Assembly: GCA_027625915.1 (NCBI GenBank)
Contig: JANTQA010000048.1
Coordinates: 2,170,001 to 2,234,000 of the forward strand
Direction of reading: 5' to 3'
DNA: 64,000 nucleotides
Source of the DNA: Anaeramoeba flamelloides
Lineage: Eukaryota > Metamonada > Anaeramoebidae
The position numbers and the translations under genes are program-made. Below are positions 35,029 to 57,857 of the stretch, piece by piece. The notes beneath the pieces are model-generated. The model ran no database searches. It was not told where the DNA came from and saw nothing but the letters and a program-made list of their open reading frames with translations. Each line of letters begins with the position of its first letter. Position 1 is the first letter of the stretch.

Positions 35029-36285
35029 TTATTTATTATAAGCCCAGCTAACAATTGAAAACCCAAAACCAAAAAAAAATACAGAGGCAATTAAAAGGAA
35101 TAATTTATCTTTTGCCAATTTTGAACTGTAGATACACCCAACTATAATACCAATTAAAGCTTCTGGCAATAAAACTAGGGAATACTTAAGAACTAAGAGG
35201 CGGTCAAATGTTGCGAATGTTGTCCAGAAAATAAAAAGGAGAAGAGTATAAAAACAGCAAAAGAAATTTGAAATCATTGCCGAGTTTATTGGGCCAAACC
35301 CAAACCAATTTTCAAGTGTTACATAAATAAAAAGCCCCGGTGAAACTGCTAGCATTCCTGAAAAGAAAGTAATTAGAAAGTACACGATACAAATTATTGC
35401 TATTGAGATTTGAAATCTTCGATTTTTCCAGTCACCAACCCAACTTGACAGCTCAGATTCTTTAATGGTTTTAAATCCTTTTTTTTCCAGAAGCGAGATT
35501 TCGAGATCTTGTTCTTCTTGTGTGATTGGGGAATTGATTGAACCCAAAGAATCTTGGAAATGGTTTGATTTTTGGTTATTTAAAATATTTTTGTGCTCTT
35601 TATTGTCTTCTTCGTTGTCCAGTTCTTTTTTCTCTTTTTCTTTTTCTTTTTCTTGGACAATTTCTTCGACTTTTTCTTCTACTTTTTCTTCGACTTTTTC
35701 TTCTTCTTCACTCTTCTGATTATTTTCCACTTTCTTTTCCTTTTCTTTATTAGTGTTATCTTGATCTCGGGAATCGGTCGGAAAAGACTCTTCTGATTCC
35801 TGATCAAGAAGAGGCACGTTTACACCCCCATTTTGAAGATTTAGTTTTTTCTTCTTTTCTGATCGTTGAATACTTTTTTTGGATCGCCACACCTTAAAAA
35901 GAAAGAGGCACCCAAAAAACAGCAGCATATAGGAGATTCCTCCATCCAAATGCTTTTGAACAACAACCTGGTACCTTTTCGTATATGTTAGCCCTGCCAT
36001 GCCCCCAACACAGATCACAAAGCCAGGAATAATTAGCCATGTTTGGAGCTGTCTTTCAATCTTTTTCTTTTTCAACAGAACATTGAGCAAAAACAAAGAG
36101 AAAAAGCAAGAGACAACATCCAACGATAAAGATACATAAATAATGCGGTTGATTGGAAAATGCCAAATGCTCAGAGACAACGGAACAAGAAACTTCCATT
36201 GTGTTAATGCTATTGTTGAACTACCAATCCCAGTCAAAAAACTTGAGAAAAAAAAGACTAAAAAAAATTCAAGCAAAAGATCCAT
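35029..36285 (-). CDS. TauE/SafE-like multi-pass membrane protein with acidic linker
   Basis: A single exon of 418 aa from the first true ATG; an in-frame GTG just upstream is ignored. TauE/SafE proteins are transporters, several implicated in sulfite or sulfonate export, built from two four-helix repeats. Here the N-terminal half (residues about 1-135) carries TGIGSSTIALTQWKFLVPLS in helix 1-2, and the C-terminal half (about 289-418) carries the equivalent FFSGMLAVSPGLFIYVTLEN followed by GPINSAMISN. The two repeats are joined by a roughly 150-residue soluble linker with EEKVEEKVEEKVEE and EKEKEKEKK, likely coiled-coil or disordered. The glycine-rich repeat signature is degenerate (GIGSS instead of GIGGG), so substrate cannot be inferred. 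The call rests on the duplicated helix pattern. Intron-free. Confidence 0.7.
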   Translation of the reverse strand: MDLLLEFFLVFFFSSFLTGIGSSTIALTQWKFLVPLSLSIWHFPINRIIYVSLSLDVVSCFFSLFLLNVLLKKKKIERQLQTWLIIPGFVICVGGMAGLTYTKRYQVVVQKHLDGGISYMLLFFGCLFLFKVWRSKKSIQRSEKKKKLNLQNGGVNVPLLDQESEESFPTDSRDQDNTNKEKEKKVENNQKSEEEEKVEEKVEEKVEEIVQEKEKEKEKKELDNEEDNKEHKNILNNQKSNHFQDSLGSINSPITQEEQDLEISLLEKKGFKTIKESELSSWVGDWKNRRFQISIAIICIVYFLITFFSGMLAVSPGLFIYVTLENWFGFGPINSAMISNFFCCFYTLLLFIFWTTFATFDRLLVLKYSLVLLPEALIGIIVGCIYSSKLAKDKLFLLIASVFFFGFGFSIVSWAYNK

Positions 36286-37478
36286 TTTCACAAAAAAAGA
36301 AAATGAATTGGAAGTTTGACAAAGGTATTTCGATTTTTTTTATTGGTCCAAAAACACCACTTTTTAGGTTTTAGAAACTCCAATTCGGCTTGGTTGATTT
36401 TTAATCCAGATTGACTCAATAGTGTTTCGTTTTTTGTCAATTAAAAATTTATTTTCTGATTTTGAAAACCAGTTTTTTATTTTCGCCTAAGAAGATTTAA
36501 TTACTCATAATTAGGTACTAATATAATCAAACAACCAGTTTCTAACAATTCAAATGAAATTAATTTCGAAAAAATCGAAAAAAATAAATGATTTCAGTTT
36601 GCTTTTAAGTTGATAAATTCAGATGCGATTTCCTCCACCCCCGTGCATGGGACGATACTTCAATTTGTTTATGCTCTTTATCTTTTTAATAAAATACTTT
36701 TTAACCAAGTATTCATGCAAAAATCACATATTTGTACCTTTAATAATAATTTTGAAGCTCAGAGAATTCCTTCGTTATTGGTTCGTTTCTTATTAAATTT
36801 ACTTGGAACTAAGGGTAAATCTGATTAAGGTTCGGATTATAAATACAAATAAAAACACCTCTCTAATAGTTGTCAAAATAATGTGTGAAGAAATGTTTAA
36901 CCACATCTTTCAAAATAAAAAGCGTGTTTTTTTTTGTTATAGAAGACGTATATATCAACCTATCAAAGAAACTGTCTATAGACTCAGAGAAAATATGAGA
37001 CTGATAACTCCAAGTTCTATTATTTAAAAAGAAATTCCAAAAATAAAGATCAAAGGTGAAATTTTGTCTCAAAAAATAGAGGAAATCTTTTTAATAAAAA
37101 GAACAGAACAAAGCAAAAAGTAATAAAAAAAATTTTTTGAACAATATGCATTACGAAAAATTTTCAACTAATTGCAATCATAATTTAAAATTTACTTAAA
37201 ATATCAACGGCTTTACCTCTCAAAGTTGATTTCAAATAAGATATACTGTTGGGTAATGAATTAGATATTGCATTTAAACAAGAAGAAAAAAAAAGCACGG
37301 ATTCTTTTTTGAAAAGGGTTTTTTAAGGCTTGGAGGACATGTTTTTTTGATCACTATCGATTTCTTTTGAGATACTTTCATGAATTTTAAGCTTTATTGG
37401 AAGCCTTTATTCTAAAAAAACTTTAAAATTCTTTGAAAATTTAAAAATCAATATTACAGACTAATTCAGAAAAATCCT
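36286..37478. other. Gene-free DNA at the strand switch, left part
   Basis: Upstream of the TauE-like gene. It contains a short GC-richer segment (about 36620-36655, CCTCCACCCCCGTGCATGGG) and a reverse fragment of repeat R6 near 36910. Open frames on both strands at 36803-37072 are readings of this repeat. Confidence 0.45.
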
Positions 37479-43110: not shown

Positions 43111-46100
43111 ATGGGTTTTTTCATTTTTTACAAACTTTTCTTATCTATGCGTTTTTTTTCTTTCATTCTCCTCTTTTGTTTTTTAACTTTTTCTTTTTGT
43201 TTTTCGATTCAGGATCTCAAAAAGTCTCTTTTTTTGAAATCAAAAAATGAGCCAAAATGGATCCAAATACGAGACGGTCCCATTGGTTTAGGATCAAAAA
43301 ATGAGCAACACCAAAGGTAACAACAATTTTTCTCTTTTTTTCTTTTTTTTTTTTCTTCTATTTGATCCTTCCAAAAACAAAATAAAAAAAATCGATTTTG
43401 TTTATTGTTTCTTCAAAACAAAAATACAAAAACGAAAACCTATTTTGCTTTCTAATCGTTTTTAAAAAAGTCTAACTGAAAAAGAAGAAAACAAAGTTCT
43501 GAAAATAGGACACTTTAAGTTTTTCAACTGTTTTATTTGGATACTTTTGCAAAATTTTTTGCAACTTTTTTGCGATCGAAAATAATTTTTTTTGTTCTTC
43601 ATTGATCTTTAAGGTTTATGGTTCTTGAAATGGGAAAAAAAGGTTATTTGTTTTTTTTTTTTTTATTATTGAAGAAGTGTAAATTACACTCTAGTTGCCC
43701 TTAGACTTAAATTCCCTTTCAGAAATTTAAGCAAAAAATCATAGATTTCACAATTATTAATTAATGAAAATAATTTCAAACTGTCTTGTTTTAAAATTAA
43801 TTCATTAAGGATTAATTTCTTTTAATTTGTTATGAAATATTAATCTACTATCTTTTCCATAGGAAGGATATACCCATAAAAAATGATTAATATTTTCTAT
43901 TTTTTCCTTTTGTTCATATATTAAACATAAAGGGCAAAATTTATTTGAATTTTTATTGATTACATAGCAACACCTATATAAACAATTAGTAAATGATCTG
44001 AATTTTAGAATTGTTAATTTGATGGATAACTTAAATATTTTTGGGTTTTAAATAAATAATTCTGATTTTTAATTATTGCAATATATATTTGTGGAAAATC
44101 GTCAAGTGCTGTCGAGTGTCGTAAAGTGCCTTCAAGTGCCTAGGTTTACCGGATTTTCTGTTTTATTTATAAAGTGCTCTAGGTTTTTTTAATAAATTTT
44201 CGGTTTATTTCAAAAAGTAAAAAAAAATCTAACGAAAATCTATTGATTTTCCAAATAAACAGAAAACTCAAGAAAACCTAACGGCGGTTTTTTTTAATTT
44301 GAATTCAAAAGAATTGAAAAATTTTCTTTTAATTTCTAAAATTAAAAAAGATAATGGCGGTTTTCCAGAATTCAAAAGAAGTAAGTAAAATCTTTGATTT
44401 AACTCAATTCTATTAAATTAAGGAAAACCTAACGAAAAGTGTCCTCAAGTGCCCACTTTTCCAGAATTCAAAAGAATAGAGTAAAATCTCAGATTTTTCT
44501 CAATTCTTTTGAATTCTGGAAAAGCTAAAGGCGTTTTTTTTTAATTTAAGAAATAAACCGAAACTTTCTTAAATTTTATGTTTATTTCTAAAATTAAAAA
44601 AAACATAATGACACTCTCAAGTTTTAGAATTCAGCAACTCGTTATATGTGTACTTATATAAGGTATTTCCAAAAAAGTGGGGCATTTTTTTTCACTTTTT
44701 ATAAAAAATCATCATTATTAGTGATGGTATTTATTAATCGACAATACCAAATTAAGTTTAATATTAATACCGATTAAACCAATGACCTAAGGTATTTATT
44801 TCGAAATATGTTAGTTGAAATATTCCCAAAAAATGAAAAAAAAAATAGCTCTTTTTTTGGTTAAAGCAATGTACGACCAATTTCAATAAAAAACCGGAAA
44901 TATGGAAAGGGAACAAATGATTTTTTAAACACTAAAACGCAGTTATATGTTTTTAATTATATTGTAAAAATTGTTGAGATTAAAAAAGTTATGGAAATGG
45001 CTTTTTCGATCAAAAAGAAAATAATAAACGCCAATTTTCACCTCTATAATATATCAGATAAAATCAAGATCAGAAATTTTAATATTTTTTATTTATGTAA
45101 TACAATACTAAGAAACAAAATGAATTGTTATCAAGAATCTATAAATGGTAGTTAATGATATTGGATGTTTAAATATTTTTTTGAAGATTGGGTTTAAAAG
45201 AGATATTTTAAAATAAATTTGCCCCACTTTATTGGAAATAGCTTATTTCAATTTTAAATTCAATTAAATCTTTTGAATACCAGTTGATTTTATTATTTAT
45301 TCTTTGATTAAATTTTATTAATTTTTCTAAATAAGGAAGAGATAACTTTTTTAATTTATTCTTTAATTTAAATTATTTTTTTATTTACTGAAATTATCAT
45401 ATTTTCGATTTTAATTTCTGTTTTGTAAATAATGTTTGATATATTTCTGTTGATTTTACATATTTCAGTTATAAATGAATTAATCCAAGAATTTAAGTAA
45501 TTTAAAGTTTTTATTTCATAATTAAAAATGTTCGAACCCATATCTTAATTAACTTAATATAAATGATTTAAATAATCTAATATTCATATTATTGTTCATA
45601 GAATTGTTATTAAATAATTGTTTAGAGCTATTAAATATCTCTTTTGATTTTTTTAAATTATAAACTATATGTGAAATTTTATCGAAATAAATACCCAAAT
45701 ATTTAATTTTTTTTAAAATCTTTTGAGATAACTGTTTTATCTTTATTAGATTTTAGTCCAAATTGAAAAAATATTATTTGTTTATCGTGCAATTTTCAAT
45801 CTATCTATCTATTTCAAAGGCAACTATGTACCAAAAGTAAAAAAAAATATCCTATTAAAAAAAAAAAGAGAAGAAATCAGTCAAAATTATCGAAAATTGA
45901 TTTTTATTATCGAAAATTTAAAAGTCTTTTTCATTTTTCAGTTCTGTTCAAAATGAAAAAAAAGTTTCTTTTTGCTTTGTTTTTACAAAAAAAGAATTTT
46001 TAATAGAACTTTTGATAAATTTTTGGCAAAATATAATTTTTTTGCAACCAATCACTACTCTTATTTGCTCAGTATAACATTTTCTCGTAATATACCCAAG

Positions 46101-49100
46101 TACAATTGAATTTACATACTAGATCATGAAAAAACTTTAATATGAGAACAATTTTTATATAAGAGTGTTTATTTCATAATATACTTTTCTCAAGATCTTG
46201 TTCAGTTTTATAAAAATTTTAATAGTAAAAAATAAATTTTTTTACTATTAAAAAAATTACTAATATAAAGAATTTTTTGAAATAAATGTTTTGAAAATTG
46301 TTATGAAAGAATATAAAATAATATTATTAGTGGGTTTATACTTTTAAAATATTCACCTTTGTCCCTATAAAATTTTACTTATAATCATTTTATCATTTGA
46401 TAATTATTCAAAATATACTTTTAAAATTTGTGCTTTTTTAAACTCCAAAAACTAATTTAAAAACCATTTGATGAACGTGGCTGGGTTGGAAATGAAATTT
46501 TATAAAAAAAAAAAAAGATAAAATTTTATGATTTTGTGAAAAGATGGTAAAACTGATGTATGTAGATTCAAGTAATTCTGTCCAAATAAATAATCATCAA
46601 AAATCCAATACCTTTATATTAATTCCCAACTACAAACTATCATTTCTTTAAGGTTCTTGCCTTGATCAAACAAAAAAACTAAAATAATTTTTACTCATAA
46701 TTTAAATTATGAAAAAAATAATAATTTACCACATTTTAGTTTTTATTATTTTTTCAACAACAATAAAAGACCAAAAACAATAAAAGAACAAAAACAATAA
46801 AAATAACAGAAAACAACACAACCATAAAATTTTATTGTTCAGGATATTTATATTGATTTGGTGTAGCTAAGTTAGAAAAAGTTAGACATTATTTTGCGGA
46901 AAATTAAATTGTTTTGTGGAAGAAATTTTTAATATTGTTCTAATTAGATTATGTTAGATATTTTTTTTTAAATAACAAAATTATTCTCTCAACTAAAAAA
47001 AATTTTTTTTTCTTAATAGTGAAATAATTTCAATTACAAAACCAGAAGAAACTGAATATATTGCCACTTGTTCAAGAAATGGGGAAATAAATTTTTATAG
47101 AGTCTTAATGTATCCTAATATATATCCTTATTGGACACATTTATATTATGGCAAATTAACCTTACCACATGATACCATTATTAAAGATTGTTTATTTTCG
47201 AAAGACCAAACACAATTAATTGTTTTACAATCTACCAAAGAAGAAGAAAATAATTTTAATACAGTAACAATATTGGATTTATTTGAAATAATTGATGTTA
47301 ATACCAGAGATGAGTATTTTATTTCAAATCCAAAAATTAATGATCACCTTCAAGATTTAGGATTTCAAATTAATCACCCAAGGGATAATGTAAATTTCAT
47401 TTGGTCTGATAAAAAAAATATTGAAAACTCCCAAATTAGTTATGATAATGATAAATATCAAAAAGAATTAAACAATAAAGGGCATATTTTCAATAATGAA
47501 AAATCAATTAACAAAATTTTAAGTAATGATATTCAGACTAAACAACATAATTCATTCATGAATAATGACGAACTAGTAAAAAATAAAATAAGAATGTCCA
47601 AAGATTCAAATTATTTAATTATTATGGAAGGGACTGACCATTGGATTATTGATGGAAGTTCAGGTAATAAACACCGTTCATTGAGAGATGTTAAAGATTC
47701 ACAATTTTCAACAATATCAAATTCCTTTTATACAATTGGTACAGACAATTCATTATATGTTTATTCAAAAAATGATGAATCAAAAAAATCAAATTGGGCC
47801 CAAGAAAAAATTAATTTAGAACATGAATTAAAAAATAAGAATTTTCAACAATTCTTGGTTGTAAAGAAAAATATTTGTGATCAAAATAACAACGATGATG
47901 ATAATGCCGACTACTACAACAACAATAATAATGACAAGAATAATAATATAAAAAAAAAACACAAAAGTGAATTATTATTTTTATATAATATAAGCAAAAG
48001 TAATAATAGAGAAACTCTAATTATTATTGAAATTGATTCAAATTTCAAAATAAAAAAAATTCAAGAAATTAATTTAACAAACGTTCTCAAAGAAATAAGG
48101 AATGGTGATCATTATGGAGACGATAATACCAAATTAAGAAATGAGCTTCTTATCAAATCTTCACCAGATGGGAAATATGTAGCGGTAACTGCTGTGGGTT
48201 CAAATGTTATTCAAATCTTAAATTATAATTCCAATTTAAAAAAATACATAATCCATGAACAGATAATATTAAAATCGAATAAAAAGAACAATGATAATGA
48301 AAATAATAACAAAATATCTACAATTAATTTTTATCAATTCCAATTTTATTATTTGCAAATAGGTACTCTAAATGGTAATTATTTAATTCACAAAAATAAT
48401 AAAGAAGAATCACCAGAATGCTTTCCACTTGCAAGGAGGATCTCATTTTATATTAAGGAAAGGCCAATTCAGCCCAAGAGAACCCATTTATATAAGCATG
48501 GAAACCGAAGATCTAATTACATAATTGATGGGATCTGGAAACATCCATTATTTTTATTGTCAATATTAATGTTTTTAATATTACTATATTTCCAGCCAAT
48601 TATCACAAAGTTGGAATATTTACTATTTGCAGGGATCTTAAATAAAATTGGGAATGTCATGAACAATTTGAAAAAATATATTAATTATTTGCCAATAATC
48701 TTATCCTTCTTATCCATTTTTGAAATCTTCACTCAGCAGCCCATTTTTGTTAACGATTGGCCTGCACACATGAGCCATATTGAGCAATTTTTAAAAGAAA
48801 AAACATTTGATTATTCCAAATATATGCATCACCATGGCCCAAACACATATGCATCAGGATGGCAATATCTCTATTCAATCTTTTATTTTATAACAAATTC
48901 TGGAAGTTTAACTTTATTCCAAATCTTATTTGCAATTTTTGAAGTAATTATCATGATCTTAATTTTTAGAATTATTTCGAAAAAATTGAAATTGCCCCTA
49001 ATTATTGCCATTTTGGCAATCGCGTCAAATAGATTACATTTGTATAACGTTAGGGTCTTGGTAAACGATTTCCCTTCGGCACTTGGCTTATATATTGTTT

Positions 49101-49897
49101 TTTATTTATTTTTAAATCAAAAGTGGTTTTGGGCTTCGATCTTCTATTCCTTTGTAGTCGCAACCAAACTCAATTTCATTTTTTATTCGCCAGTGATCTT
49201 TTTGATACTCCTCCACTCAACCGGTATCATTAAGACAATATTATTATGCTTTGTAATGTTGATTGAGCAAATTGTATTGGCAATACCCTTCCTTCTCGCA
49301 AATCCAATAGATTATTTAAAAAATGCCTATGATATAAGTAGAACTTTACTTTGGGAAAAGTCCAGAAACTTTAAATTCGTTGGATTGGAAATTTTTGATG
49401 ACTCGCGTTGGCATGTATTATTATTATGTCTAACTTTAATCATCTTGGTTATATTTCTCAAAAAGGTTAATGCCCTTTTAAAAAAAATACCAGTTGGATC
49501 GATTAATTGGAAAAGATTGATCATTTTTTCTCTAATGTTCTCCAATTTTATTTTTATTACCTTTTCCAGAGGATTGTATACACCCTTTTTTGTCTGGTAT
49601 TTTTATTCCTTTTCAACAATTTGTTATTTCTCGGGAATACCTAATCTATTCATTCTAATTTTTTGGATTTCTCATGAAGTGCTGTTCAGGTGGTGGGATT
49701 CTCATATTTTAGAAATGTGGATTACCTTCTTTTACTTTTTAATCAATATTTATATATTAATTTCAACCTTTTCAAATGACAATTCCTTTATTAATATTTT
49801 GGAGAAAAATCCTGGATCCTTAGCAAAAGATACAAATCATGATAAATTAGATCAAAAAAGGAGTAAAAATATTAATAAAGAAAAGAAAGATAAATAA
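43111..49897 (+). CDS. ALG3: Beta-propeller / ALG3 alpha-1,3-mannosyltransferase fusion, two exons
   Basis: Exon 1 is 43111-43316 (donor AG|GTAACA, phase 2). Exon 2 is 47020-49897 (acceptor TTAATAG|T), which restores the frame and gives 1027 aa; a second ATG at 43147 would give 1015. Residues about 13-32 are a hydrophobic signal peptide. Residues about 60-560 hold WD40/PQQ-like units (ETEYIATCSRNGEINFYRV; SSPDGKYVAVTAVGSNVIQI) with N/D-rich insertions. One membrane segment at about 577-600 precedes ALG3. The enzyme begins near 620: VNDWPAHMSHIEQFL at about 646 is the lumenal loop 1 acidic motif, followed by GPNTYASGWQYLYSIFYF, RVLVNDFPSALGLY, AIPFLLANPIDYL and FSRGLYTPFFVWYF, in ALG3 order. 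ALG3 adds the sixth mannose, in alpha-1,3 linkage, to Man5GlcNAc2-PP-dolichol in the ER lumen. Known ALG3 proteins are about 440 aa without a propeller. Exon joining is inferred from phase; the 3.7-kb intron could hide a further small exon. Confidence 0.8.
43790..44060 (-). mobile_element. LINE remnant, C-terminal zinc-finger region
   Basis: Minus-strand translation gives LTILKFRSFTNCLYRC and FCPLCLIYEQKEKIENINHF, then PSYGKDSRLIFHNKLKEI. This resembles the Cys-Cys-His zf-RVT segment that follows reverse transcriptase in non-LTR retrotransposons. Stops flank the segment, and no intact frame covers the element. Confidence 0.6.
44090..44640. repeat. Palindrome array H6
   Basis: The clearest array. 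The unit at 44457-44523 is a 67-base near-perfect palindrome (arms TTTTCCAGAATTCAAAAGAA, centre AAAATCTCAGATTT). It is preceded by a related unit at 44344-44425 and a second type with GAAAATCTATTGATTTTCC (about 44240-44275). GC-richer spacers read GTGCTGTCGAGTGTCGTAAA and GTGTCCTCAAGTGCCC. Confidence 0.85.
44661..45243. mobile_element. TIR element, family C, complete copy
   Basis: Ends GGTATTTCCAAAAAAGTGGG and the complementary CCCACTTTATTGGAAATAGC enclose about 580 bp. The interior matches, in reverse, the two worn copies at 15785-16660. The terminal style resembles the TA-inserted element at 59551. No coding potential seen. Confidence 0.75.
45250..45800 (-). mobile_element. LINE remnant, reverse-transcriptase C-terminal part
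   Basis: Minus-strand frames give FGLKSNKDKTVIS, then KKIKYLGIYFDKISHIVYNL, then NMNIRLFKSFILS and LRYGFEHF. This is the order seen in the thumb region of LINE reverse transcriptases (YLGI, then KSFILS.LRYG). Frames shift and stops occur, so it is a dead fragment. It belongs with 43790-44060; array H6 and the family C element lie between the two. Confidence 0.65.
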
Positions 49898-52380: not shown

Positions 52381-53937
52381 ATGGTCGAAAAAATTGAAAA
52401 TATTTTGCTCTTTCTGGATCTAATTTTCAATTTGATCCCAACAAGAACAATTCAAAAGCAAAGTAATTATACAATAGTAATTCTATTTCTTTTACTTTTC
52501 CTTTTCTCGTTGATATTAAAAAACAAAGTCGAGGGCTATTTAAATAATTATTACCCAAGAGAAGGATCGCAATCTGTTCTTTTAGGCCTTTTAATTCTCC
52601 CAATCTTATTTTATTCAATATCCGTTCAGCCAAATGATGAGCAGAGCAAAATGTCCGTATTCTACCCAATTTTTTTAATTGCTCTGCATCAAAGCTATTT
52701 CACATTATTGATTCCAACAAAGGTGTCACCGATCTTTAGTATCTTGTATTGGTATTTCTTCAAAGAATATTTGCCAATTGTACCATTTACACTAACAGTG
52801 CTCTCTCATTGCCGGTTATTATATTTATTCTTAAAACACTTGAAACGATCATTCTCATTTTGTGAAGCAATGATCCTTTGCCAATTCCTTTCCATCATTT
52901 TTGGAACAGTTATTACTTTATGCTTTTCAAAAATCTTCAACCAATTCTTTGATTCGAACAATGATTTGTTTGCTTTGTTTTTCATTTCGAAAAAGATTGA
53001 TCTCGCTCTTAAACTTGAACAATTACCAACAAGTTTAATATTGTCGCTTTGCATTATTTTTTCCGTGATGTTAACAATCCAATTGCTGATTAAAGCGATG
53101 AAAAAACTTGATTACAAATGCTATTTATTGCTTTTTTTTGCAAGCTTATATTTCTGTTGCTTTGCACCGTTATTTCTTTTGGTAAAAAGCGATCCCGTCG
53201 AAACAATGCTGAACCAAATCTTTCAAAACAAAGAAAGGGTCTTCTTATTGGCCTTTTGGTTTCTTACACTCTCCTTAATGTTTTTTATCTTTTTTCACTC
53301 CAAGACCATTCGATTTTCAAAACAATTATCGACAAATACCAAAAGAAAATGGTTCCATGCGCTGTCCGTTTTTATTTTTGTTCCTGGGGTTATTTTTCAA
53401 CCAGAATTTATGTGTTTGTCTTTTGTTGTTGCTCTTACGGTTTTTGTTCTCGAAGAATTCTTAAGGATTTCACAAATTGTTCCTTTTCACCATATTTTGA
53501 CCAAATTCCTCAGCCAATTTAAAGACAACAAAGATAAAGGAGTAATTATCCTTTCCCATTTCCATCTTTTAATTGGCTGTGCAATACCTGTTTGGGTTGT
53601 CACTTATTCAACGATCAACAACACACAAGTGGCAAAATTAATCCTCTTTGGTGGAATAATCGCGATCGGGATTGGAGACTCAATAGCCTCAATCGTGGGG
53701 AAAAAAATTGGAAAAATTAGATGGTACAAAACTCCTAAAACTGTGGAAGGTACCTTGTCTGCGATTATTGCCTGTACACTTTTTTCAATGCTCATCCTCA
53801 ATGACTACAATCTTTTGAAATTATTTTTTGTTTGGTCACTCTTGTTTTTATTAGAAGCATTTACTGAACAAGTAGACAATCTCGTATTGCCAATCTATTT
53901 TATATCAATATGGTTTGCCATAAATAGAGCTTCTTAA
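52381..53937 (+). CDS. DOLK: Dolichol kinase (SEC59/DOLK)
   Basis: A single exon of 518 aa, close to the 538 aa of human DOLK. The enzyme phosphorylates dolichol with CTP in the ER membrane to make dolichyl phosphate, the lipid carrier for N-glycan, O-mannose and GPI precursors. The protein is almost wholly hydrophobic, with a dozen or more predicted membrane segments. The C-terminal third holds the family signatures: RKWFHALSVFIFVPGVIF (from about residue 321), EEFLRISQIVPFHH, then GGIIAIGIGDSIASIVGKKI (from about 424) and IRWYKTPKTVEGTLSA, which in the family form the CTP-binding region. The start is the first ATG of the frame, close to upstream stop-rich DNA. It lies 2.5 kb downstream of the ALG3 fusion on the same strand, and both serve dolichol-linked oligosaccharide assembly. 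Confidence 0.92.
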   Translation: MVEKIENILLFLDLIFNLIPTRTIQKQSNYTIVILFLLLFLFSLILKNKVEGYLNNYYPREGSQSVLLGLLILPILFYSISVQPNDEQSKMSVFYPIFLIALHQSYFTLLIPTKVSPIFSILYWYFFKEYLPIVPFTLTVLSHCRLLYLFLKHLKRSFSFCEAMILCQFLSIIFGTVITLCFSKIFNQFFDSNNDLFALFFISKKIDLALKLEQLPTSLILSLCIIFSVMLTIQLLIKAMKKLDYKCYLLLFFASLYFCCFAPLFLLVKSDPVETMLNQIFQNKERVFLLAFWFLTLSLMFFIFFHSKTIRFSKQLSTNTKRKWFHALSVFIFVPGVIFQPEFMCLSFVVALTVFVLEEFLRISQIVPFHHILTKFLSQFKDNKDKGVIILSHFHLLIGCAIPVWVVTYSTINNTQVAKLILFGGIIAIGIGDSIASIVGKKIGKIRWYKTPKTVEGTLSAIIACTLFSMLILNDYNLLKLFFVWSLLFLLEAFTEQVDNLVLPIYFISIWFAINRAS

Positions 53938-57122: not shown

Positions 57123-57857
57123 ATGGTTTCTTTAAAACTCCAAAAAAGATTAGCATCATCCGTTCTTGGTGTTGGTAAAAGAAGAGTCTGGTTAGATCCT
57201 AATGAAATCCAAACCATCTCCATGTCAAACTCTAGAAGAAGCATTCGAAAGCTCCACCGTGATGGTTTAATCATCAAAAAGCCCGAAAATGCAGTCTCCA
57301 GAACAAGATTCAGAAAAAGATTGATTGCCAAAAGAAAAGGAAGACACACCGGGTTAGGTAAAAGAAAGGGTACTAAAAAGACACGTATGCCACCAAAGAT
57401 CTTGTGGATTAGAAGAATCCGAATCTTGAGAAGATTATTGAAGAAATACAGAGATTCTGGAAAGATCGATCGACATACATACCACGAACTTTACTTGAAA
57501 GCAAAAGGTAACGAATTCAAAAACAAAAGAAATTTGATTGAACACATTCACAGAGCTAAAGCAGAAAAGATCAGACAAGAGCAACTTGAACAACAAGCAC
57601 AAGCACGAATTGAAAAGAGAAAGAGCGCCCGTGAAAGAAGAAACAAACGTGTTCTTGAAAAGAGAGAAAAGTTTATGACCACCAATTTACATAAAGACTT
57701 AGAAAAGGGAATGGTGGTTGAAAAAACAAAGAAGAAACAACAACCAAAAAAGAAACAACAACCAAAAAAAAAAGAACAACCAAAAAAGAAAGAACAACCA
57801 AAAAAGAAGCAACAACCAAAAAAGAAACAACAACAAAAAAAAAAAGGAAAGAAATAA
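57123..57857 (+). CDS. RPL19: 60S ribosomal protein eL19 with repetitive C-terminal tail
   Basis: A single exon of 244 aa. Large-subunit protein eL19 sits at the subunit interface near the exit side and binds 28S rRNA. The core (residues about 1-180) is typical: [50 protein letters not shown], then [20 protein letters not shown] and the long basic helix ending in the [16 protein letters not shown] region. The family is usually about 190-200 aa; here a tail of roughly 45 residues adds [12 protein letters not shown] repeats. The gene is GC-richer and more codon-biased than its neighbours, as expected for a highly expressed gene. No intron is needed. Confidence 0.96.

Follow-up and report, generated by a model that had tools for sequence, protein, structure and literature searches.

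The window analyzed here is a stretch of 64,000 nucleotides from the AT-rich protist Anaeramoeba flamelloides (G000:C43:2170001-2234000; contig JANTQA010000048.1), taken from a eukaryotic assembly of 254 Mb in 76 contigs. It contains a two-exon gene on the forward strand in which a signal-peptide-like start and a probably WD40-like N-terminal domain (N-domain) are joined to a membrane enzyme related to the mannosyltransferase ALG3. ALG3 is, to our knowledge, the only member of glycosyltransferase family 58 (GT58), a single-domain enzyme with a single substrate. The gene was found at two further loci of the same genome, C11 and C13; the locus in the window is referred to as C43. Its features, with mean Kyte–Doolittle hydropathy (KD) for the membrane helices, are as follows.

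43147..43316, forward strand: exon 1, encoding a signal-peptide-like N-terminus and a conserved PIGLGS segment, with counterparts in C11 and C13
43317..47019, forward strand: phase-2 intron of 3703 nt, GT...AG, from the spliced model
47020..49897, forward strand: exon 2, an open frame encoding the rest of the N-domain, a linker, an extra membrane helix and the ALG3-like enzyme, up to the stop codon
47020..48535, forward strand: the part of the N-domain in exon 2 (residues 57-562), WD40-like by repeat profile, with four invariant cysteines
48458..48547, forward strand: conserved basic juxtamembrane stretch (residues 537-566)
48548..48604, forward strand: extra membrane helix, TM-A (residues 567-585), mean KD 2.5 (3.1 in C13)
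48695..48751, forward strand: TM1 (residues 616-634), the first membrane helix of the ALG3 type, which aligns with canonical ALG3 TM1, mean KD 1.6
48755..49702, forward strand: Pfam ALG3 (PF05208) match, starting at Asp636 of loop 1, E value 4e-50, 171.7 bits

A PF05208 profile search of the assembly gave at least seven matches at at least five genes. Three of the frames were long, comprising 966 (C43), 965 (C11) and 947 (C13) amino acids, and all three loci shared the two-exon plan. An upstream frame with a hydrophobic N-terminus and the PIGLGS block ended at a GT donor at each locus, and in the spliced models, which were built from sequence, a phase-2 intron cut the same Ser codon in all of them, bearing out an earlier, sequence-only reading of the window in which exon 2 continues exon 1 in matching phase. 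The introns were 3703 nt (C43), 1997 nt (C11) and 390 nt (C13) long, and the spliced models encoded proteins of 1015, 1012 and 998 aa, respectively, when the Met at 43147 was taken as the start in the window. An in-frame ATG also lies upstream at 43111; in the open frame of C11, the sole candidate start corresponds to the Met at 43147. The whole exon-1 peptide of the window matched exon 1 of C13 with an E value of 1.4e-12 (3-kb C13 stretch, filters off), but its Phe-rich composition also gave chance matches down to 3e-4 in that stretch. The part after the hydrophobic stretch matched C13 exon 1 at 4e-7, and the next match was at 1.4.

The joint between the N-domain and the enzyme was identical at the three loci and lay inside one uninterrupted frame at each, so that the fusion requires no splicing, as the same reading had stated. 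A frame break in the joint was looked for and none was found, the window frame being open and unbroken over 966 codons (46997-49897). The chance that two adjacent genes were read as one, or that the assembly is chimeric, is very small: an identical joint lies within an open frame at each of three loci, of which C13 is only 57% identical overall, and this explanation was rejected. The gene structure and the fusion of the N-domain with the ALG3-like enzyme are real, and finding the fusion at two further loci makes the original observation stronger.

Selection on the gene was estimated as the ratio of nonsynonymous to synonymous divergence (dN/dS) by the Nei–Gojobori method. Between C43 and C11, dN/dS was 0.05 in the enzyme (358 codons), 0.07 in the linker and TM-A (92 codons), 0.30 in the N-domain (461 codons) and 0.35 in exon 1 downstream of the signal peptide (36 codons). 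The amino-acid identity between C43 and C13 was 80% in the enzyme, 54% in the linker and TM-A and 41% in the N-domain, with synonymous divergence (dS) of approximately 1.1 in the enzyme and 1.2 in the N-domain and a saturated, undefined value in the linker. These results demonstrate that the enzyme part is under strong purifying selection. Because of the selection estimates over the three loci, the joint is considered old and maintained in frame.

The gene for RPL19 is common to C43 (window 57123-57857, forward strand) and C11 (L026:4363-5076, 4.4 kb downstream of the fusion), with 97% identity of the protein, and the synonymous divergence of the fusion gene was approximately 0.22. C43 and C11 appear to derive from duplication of a single segment, with C13 as a more distant paralogue. 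Stand-alone ALG3 is also paired in this genome (90.6%), and the matches to GT22 and ALG6/8 seem paired; such gene pairs suggest a large duplication or diverged haplotypes.

The PF05208 match of C43 covered profile positions 24-353 of 358 and far exceeded the cut-off of 23.6 bits, which was exceeded by C11 and C13 as well. The complete ALG3-like enzyme proposed from sequence was thus confirmed at the level of the family. When the Protein Data Bank (PDB) was searched with the enzyme part, ALG3 (PDB 9s6r) was the only sequence found at E values up to 1 (8.9e-24); an NCBIfam search with four proteins gave no match. The enzyme aligned with 9s6r from TM1 onward. For comparison of motifs, the three fusion proteins were aligned with 9s6r and with the two stand-alone ALG3 proteins of the same genome, which are encoded at C64 (frame of 481 aa) and C46 (frame of 467 aa) and are 90.6% alike; the ALG3 motif set was taken from the latter three proteins only. 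Fifty-seven columns were identical in all six proteins, including the SNFI and FSR blocks. Of the 132 columns identical among the ALG3 proteins, 56 carried another residue common to all three fusions. YTEI of loop 1 was replaced by FVN(D), GGTGPLVYPAG by HHHGPNTY(AS/PA)G, LRLFND by RVL(V/T)ND, WS(I/V)NWQ by KSRNFK and SLHYQF by GL(Y/H)TPF. YTEI, GGTGPLVYPAG, WSINW and SLHYQF were each altered at several, not all, positions in every fusion.

The fusion enzyme was 29.7% identical to the ALG3 of its own genome and 28.1% to 9s6r, and these two ALG3 proteins were 36.9% identical to each other. Since it is about equally distant from both, the fusion enzyme does not seem to have arisen by recent duplication of the resident ALG3, and its sequence suggests either an ancient or a fast-evolving paralogue. 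Compared with 9s6r, the fusion protein is approximately 28-30% identical, differs in its signature motifs, carries in addition a signal peptide, an N-domain and one more helix, and coexists with stand-alone ALG3. Unlike ALG3 proper, the fusions neither keep the signature motifs nor provide the sole ALG3 of their genome.

These data bear on the possibility that the fusion is a second ALG3, which performs the same Man5-to-Man6 step on the lipid-linked oligosaccharide and uses a lumenal propeller to sense glycoproteins or glycolipid. Membership in PF05208 with nearly full coverage and the 57 columns shared by all six proteins, with SNFI and FSR among them, would fit such a role. The presence of two stand-alone ALG3 genes and the changes in loop-1 YTEI, GGTGPLVYPAG, WSINW and SLHYQF make it unlikely. 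For the same reasons, the coupling of Man5-to-Man6 extension to a lumenal signal, as first suggested for this gene, has lost ground.

Other genes of the pathway were also detected. The genome gave 13 matches to GT22, six to ALG6/ALG8 (about four genes), three to EMC1 and 14 to PMT (PF02366) at 11 places, PF02366 being a profile that also matches seven of 14 control prokaryotes. Over 12 rows, a published table (PMC4973528) lists one ALG3 for each of eight species, two for Emiliania and none for Giardia, Spironucleus or Trichomonas. The standard N-glycan pathway is apparently in place in A. flamelloides, with the fusion as an addition to it; therefore, a different acceptor or a different regulation likely keeps the fusion in the genome.

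The character of the N-domain was analyzed with a WD40 profile of 260 repeats from the same genome, grown from a generic consensus on frames of 30 loci. The three N-domains scored 14.7, 14.5 and 14.0 bits. None of 200 shuffled sequences each for C43 and C13 reached the real score (maximum 4.5 and 7.3, respectively), and the controls were low, with 0.1 bits for the enzyme part of C43 and 3.2 bits, 0.9 bits and no match for the three frames of the genome's own EMC1. In a weaker test with the generic consensus, C13 reached 39, a score equaled by one of 60 shuffles, and C43 reached 35 (two of 60). The best repeat matches in C43 were at residues 55-81, spanning the splice, and 435-446 (48152-48187). 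Two clearer repeats lay near the two ends of the N-domain, in positions that correspond between C43 and C13, and the others were weak.

In genome searches, the C43 N-domain found three matches, all of them fusions, and the C13 N-domain found five, of which three were fusions. Full-length matches occurred only in the fusions. The other two covered 46 and 53 residues (E values 6e-4 and 1.45) and were based on an asparagine run, and the weaker of them extended into the SPDGKYLAIT blade as well. On the strength of these sequence profiles, the N-domain is described as WD40-like, and a propeller fold is likely. An EMC1-type propeller was considered as the closest kind and rejected on the profile scores of the EMC1 frames, which is a comparison of each with the WD40 profile and not of the N-domain with EMC1 directly. 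EMC1 resembles the fusion in having a signal peptide, a large lumenal beta-propeller region and then a membrane helix, but it has no enzyme part, and the EMC1 of this genome barely matches the WD40 profile.

The topology was predicted by simple hydropathy with a threshold of mean KD 1.5. The hydrophobic stretch of exon 1 scored 2.35 in C43, 2.59 in C11 and 1.47, just below the threshold, in C13. By eye, the start resembles a signal peptide, with hydrophobic residues 3-21 and small residues at -3/-1 before residue 21; a signal-peptide-like exon 1, as expected from the first reading, is supported by a hydrophobic start at all three loci. The extra membrane segment of that reading was likewise recovered, TM-A scoring 2.5 in C11 as in C43. 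It was followed by ten segments in C43 and C11 and eight in C13, and seven segments were found in the genome's own ALG3 by the same method. TM1 is weakly hydrophobic, and its value in C13 (1.33) was below the threshold. Its direction was taken from homology because it aligns with TM1 of canonical ALG3, and with one helix, TM-A, before it, the N-domain would be lumenal.

Glycosylation sequons were partly in agreement with this orientation. The N-domains contained 2 N-x-S/T sequons versus 10 reversed motifs in C43, 0 versus 10 in C11 and 6 versus 12 in C13, whereas 16 non-redundant WD40 frames of the genome contained 62 versus 59 (Fisher P 0.023, C43 and C13 only). Against block shuffles, the depletion gave P 0.006 in C43, and none of 2000 shuffles matched it in C11. 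Sequons were also low in the enzyme parts and in a TauE-type membrane protein of the window (P approximately 0.04-0.06) and not in four other window frames. In addition, four cysteines were invariant across the three N-domains, which are 45% identical. The parity of the helices, the avoidance of sequons and the conservation of cysteines favor a lumenal N-domain, a conclusion less firm than the fusion itself.

We propose that the gene product is an ALG3 paralogue of deep origin, probably a Dol-P-Man (dolichyl phosphate mannose)-dependent mannosyltransferase with a changed acceptor, and that its lumenal propeller binds either this acceptor or a partner; we give this proposal about an even chance of being right. 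A signal peptide and a WD40-like N-domain facing the lumen of the endoplasmic reticulum (ER) would have been added to a GT58 paralogue with, by family, a GT-C fold. The chain would run from the signal peptide through the lumenal N-domain, cross from lumen to cytosol at TM-A and return from cytosol to lumen at TM1, leaving loop 1 lumenal as in ALG3. The donor would most likely still be Dol-P-Man, because of the family membership, the retained SNFI...FSR...WY blocks and the acidic residue kept in loop 1. Man5GlcNAc2-PP-dolichol is probably not the acceptor, or at least not the sole one, since motifs surrounding the pocket are altered and the genome carries two stand-alone ALG3 genes as well. More speculatively, the N-domain in the lumen would capture either the acceptor or a partner protein, or hold it in position, a role that the MIR domain is thought to play in PMTs.

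Several observations weigh against this proposal, beginning with the fold. Pfam gave no match for the whole N-domains of C43 and C11, and for C13 only weak ones to an EML propeller (E value 0.024) and to WD40 (E value 0.086; 13.9 bits, cut-off 27). Three pieces of the C43 N-domain matched only unrelated families below the cut-off (best E value 0.0055). Internal repeats were not significant in a profile self-comparison (best 23.7, shuffle maximum 26.6), and the sum of the top four was reached by two of 40 shuffles. A PDB search with the N-domain alone found nothing up to an E value of 10. With the N-domain alignment there were five matches, the best to a chain of 60S ribosomal protein L22 (E value 0.0025, 74 positions), which were taken as chance. 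Of the WD40/PQQ-like units described earlier, what stands is a WD40 signal above shuffled controls, below the Pfam cut-off and without significant internal repetition. Two short peptide patterns each for the N-domain and the enzyme were also scanned against viral and prokaryotic collections, which were not meant for eukaryotes: no relative was confirmed among 136 and 49 pattern matches in viral contigs, or among 28 and 24 in prokaryote genomes.

The lumenal placement meets similar objections. The signal-peptide stretch is not conserved, with dN/dS of 1.5 between C43 and C11 (20 codons). The sequon depletion in C13 was not significant against block shuffles (P 0.20), and in EMC1, the lumenal control, with sequons and reversed motifs at 0/13, 0/14 and 7/7, one of three copies showed no depletion. 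Moreover, TM-A is preceded by a conserved, strongly basic stretch, which the positive-inside rule would place on the cytosolic side and which is at odds with a lumenal N-domain. The lumenal position claimed for the propeller from sequence is thus favored by helix parity, sequons and cysteines and opposed by this basic stretch. WD40 domains are usually cytosolic, which the basic stretch would fit, and the propeller could be so here, as in TBL2 or PREB/Sec12, if the exon-1 segment were a reverse signal anchor or TM-A did not span the membrane. We regard this as distinctly improbable, as it requires that TM-A, among the most hydrophobic helices, be non-spanning or that the ALG3 part be inverted, and sequon avoidance and the invariant cysteines fit the lumen. 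TBL2 and PREB/Sec12 share with the fusion a WD40-like domain tied to the ER membrane by one helix; in these proteins, however, the WD40 domain faces the cytosol and a glycosyltransferase is lacking.

With regard to catalysis, the altered motifs could alternatively mean lost activity, and Asp636 of loop 1 aligns to Asp in the genome's own ALG3 and to Asn in 9s6r. The ALG3 fold would then serve as a membrane anchor or as a sensor of lipid-linked sugar without transferase activity, with the propeller as a docking platform. The replacement of the Glu of ALG3 YTEI and the changes in pocket motifs are compatible with such a pseudo-enzyme, but the enzyme is the most constrained region of the protein (dN/dS 0.05; 80% identity to C13 versus 41% in the N-domain) and the acidic residue of loop 1 is kept, which makes this explanation quite unlikely.

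Enzymes of the GT-C type with added lumenal binding domains are known, namely PMTs with MIR and TMTCs with tetratricopeptide repeats (TPRs), and we know of none in GT58; WD40-like propellers are rare in the ER lumen. PMT/POMT and TMTC1-4 resemble the proposed protein in combining a GT-C enzyme that uses Dol-P-Man with a lumenal, non-catalytic, protein-binding domain. They differ in glycosyltransferase family, in the added domain and in its position in the chain, and matches to the PMT family lie elsewhere in this genome. No report of a fusion between ALG3/GT58 and a propeller was found among the literature matches listed, PMC4973528 and PMC8476585 included, a scope that excluded subscription journals and preprints. 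The gene has a domain architecture that is new and belongs to a diverged branch of an established enzyme family. The bolder view of a novel type of lumenal mannosylation enzyme, that an ALG3-derived GT58 enzyme selects a protein or another acceptor that is not a lipid-linked oligosaccharide through its lumenal WD40-like propeller, having evolved beside the standard N-glycan pathway, is speculative and rather doubtful at present.

Further observations concern the surroundings of the gene. A dolichol-kinase-like gene, of the ALG3 pathway, lies 2.5 kb downstream on the same strand (window 52381-53937, forward, 518 aa). Its C-terminal part matched CTP_transf_1 with an E value of 9e-4, below the cut-off, and the full frame gave no such match. 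It was the only such match in the genome and was not found in the searched C11 and C13 stretches. The TauE/SafE-type membrane protein mentioned above (window 35029-36339, reverse strand; TauE E value 6e-9) carries a charged low-complexity insert. In the intron of the window gene, a short frame (43805-44047, reverse strand) shows by eye a CPLC...H..W..P pattern, which we take to resemble the zinc-binding end of reverse transcriptases of non-LTR (long terminal repeat) retrotransposons. One GT22 match elsewhere (G000:C29:2256810-2257628) contained nine internal stops (two TGA, seven TAA), which may reflect introns or a pseudogene, and a possible relative with an open frame is located on C26.

A duplicated and diverged GT58 protein with a lumenal receptor-like domain, present in three copies under purifying selection, would signal that this family has branched into another function. 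The fusion offers a directly testable case of how an enzyme of lipid-linked oligosaccharide synthesis could acquire a new acceptor.

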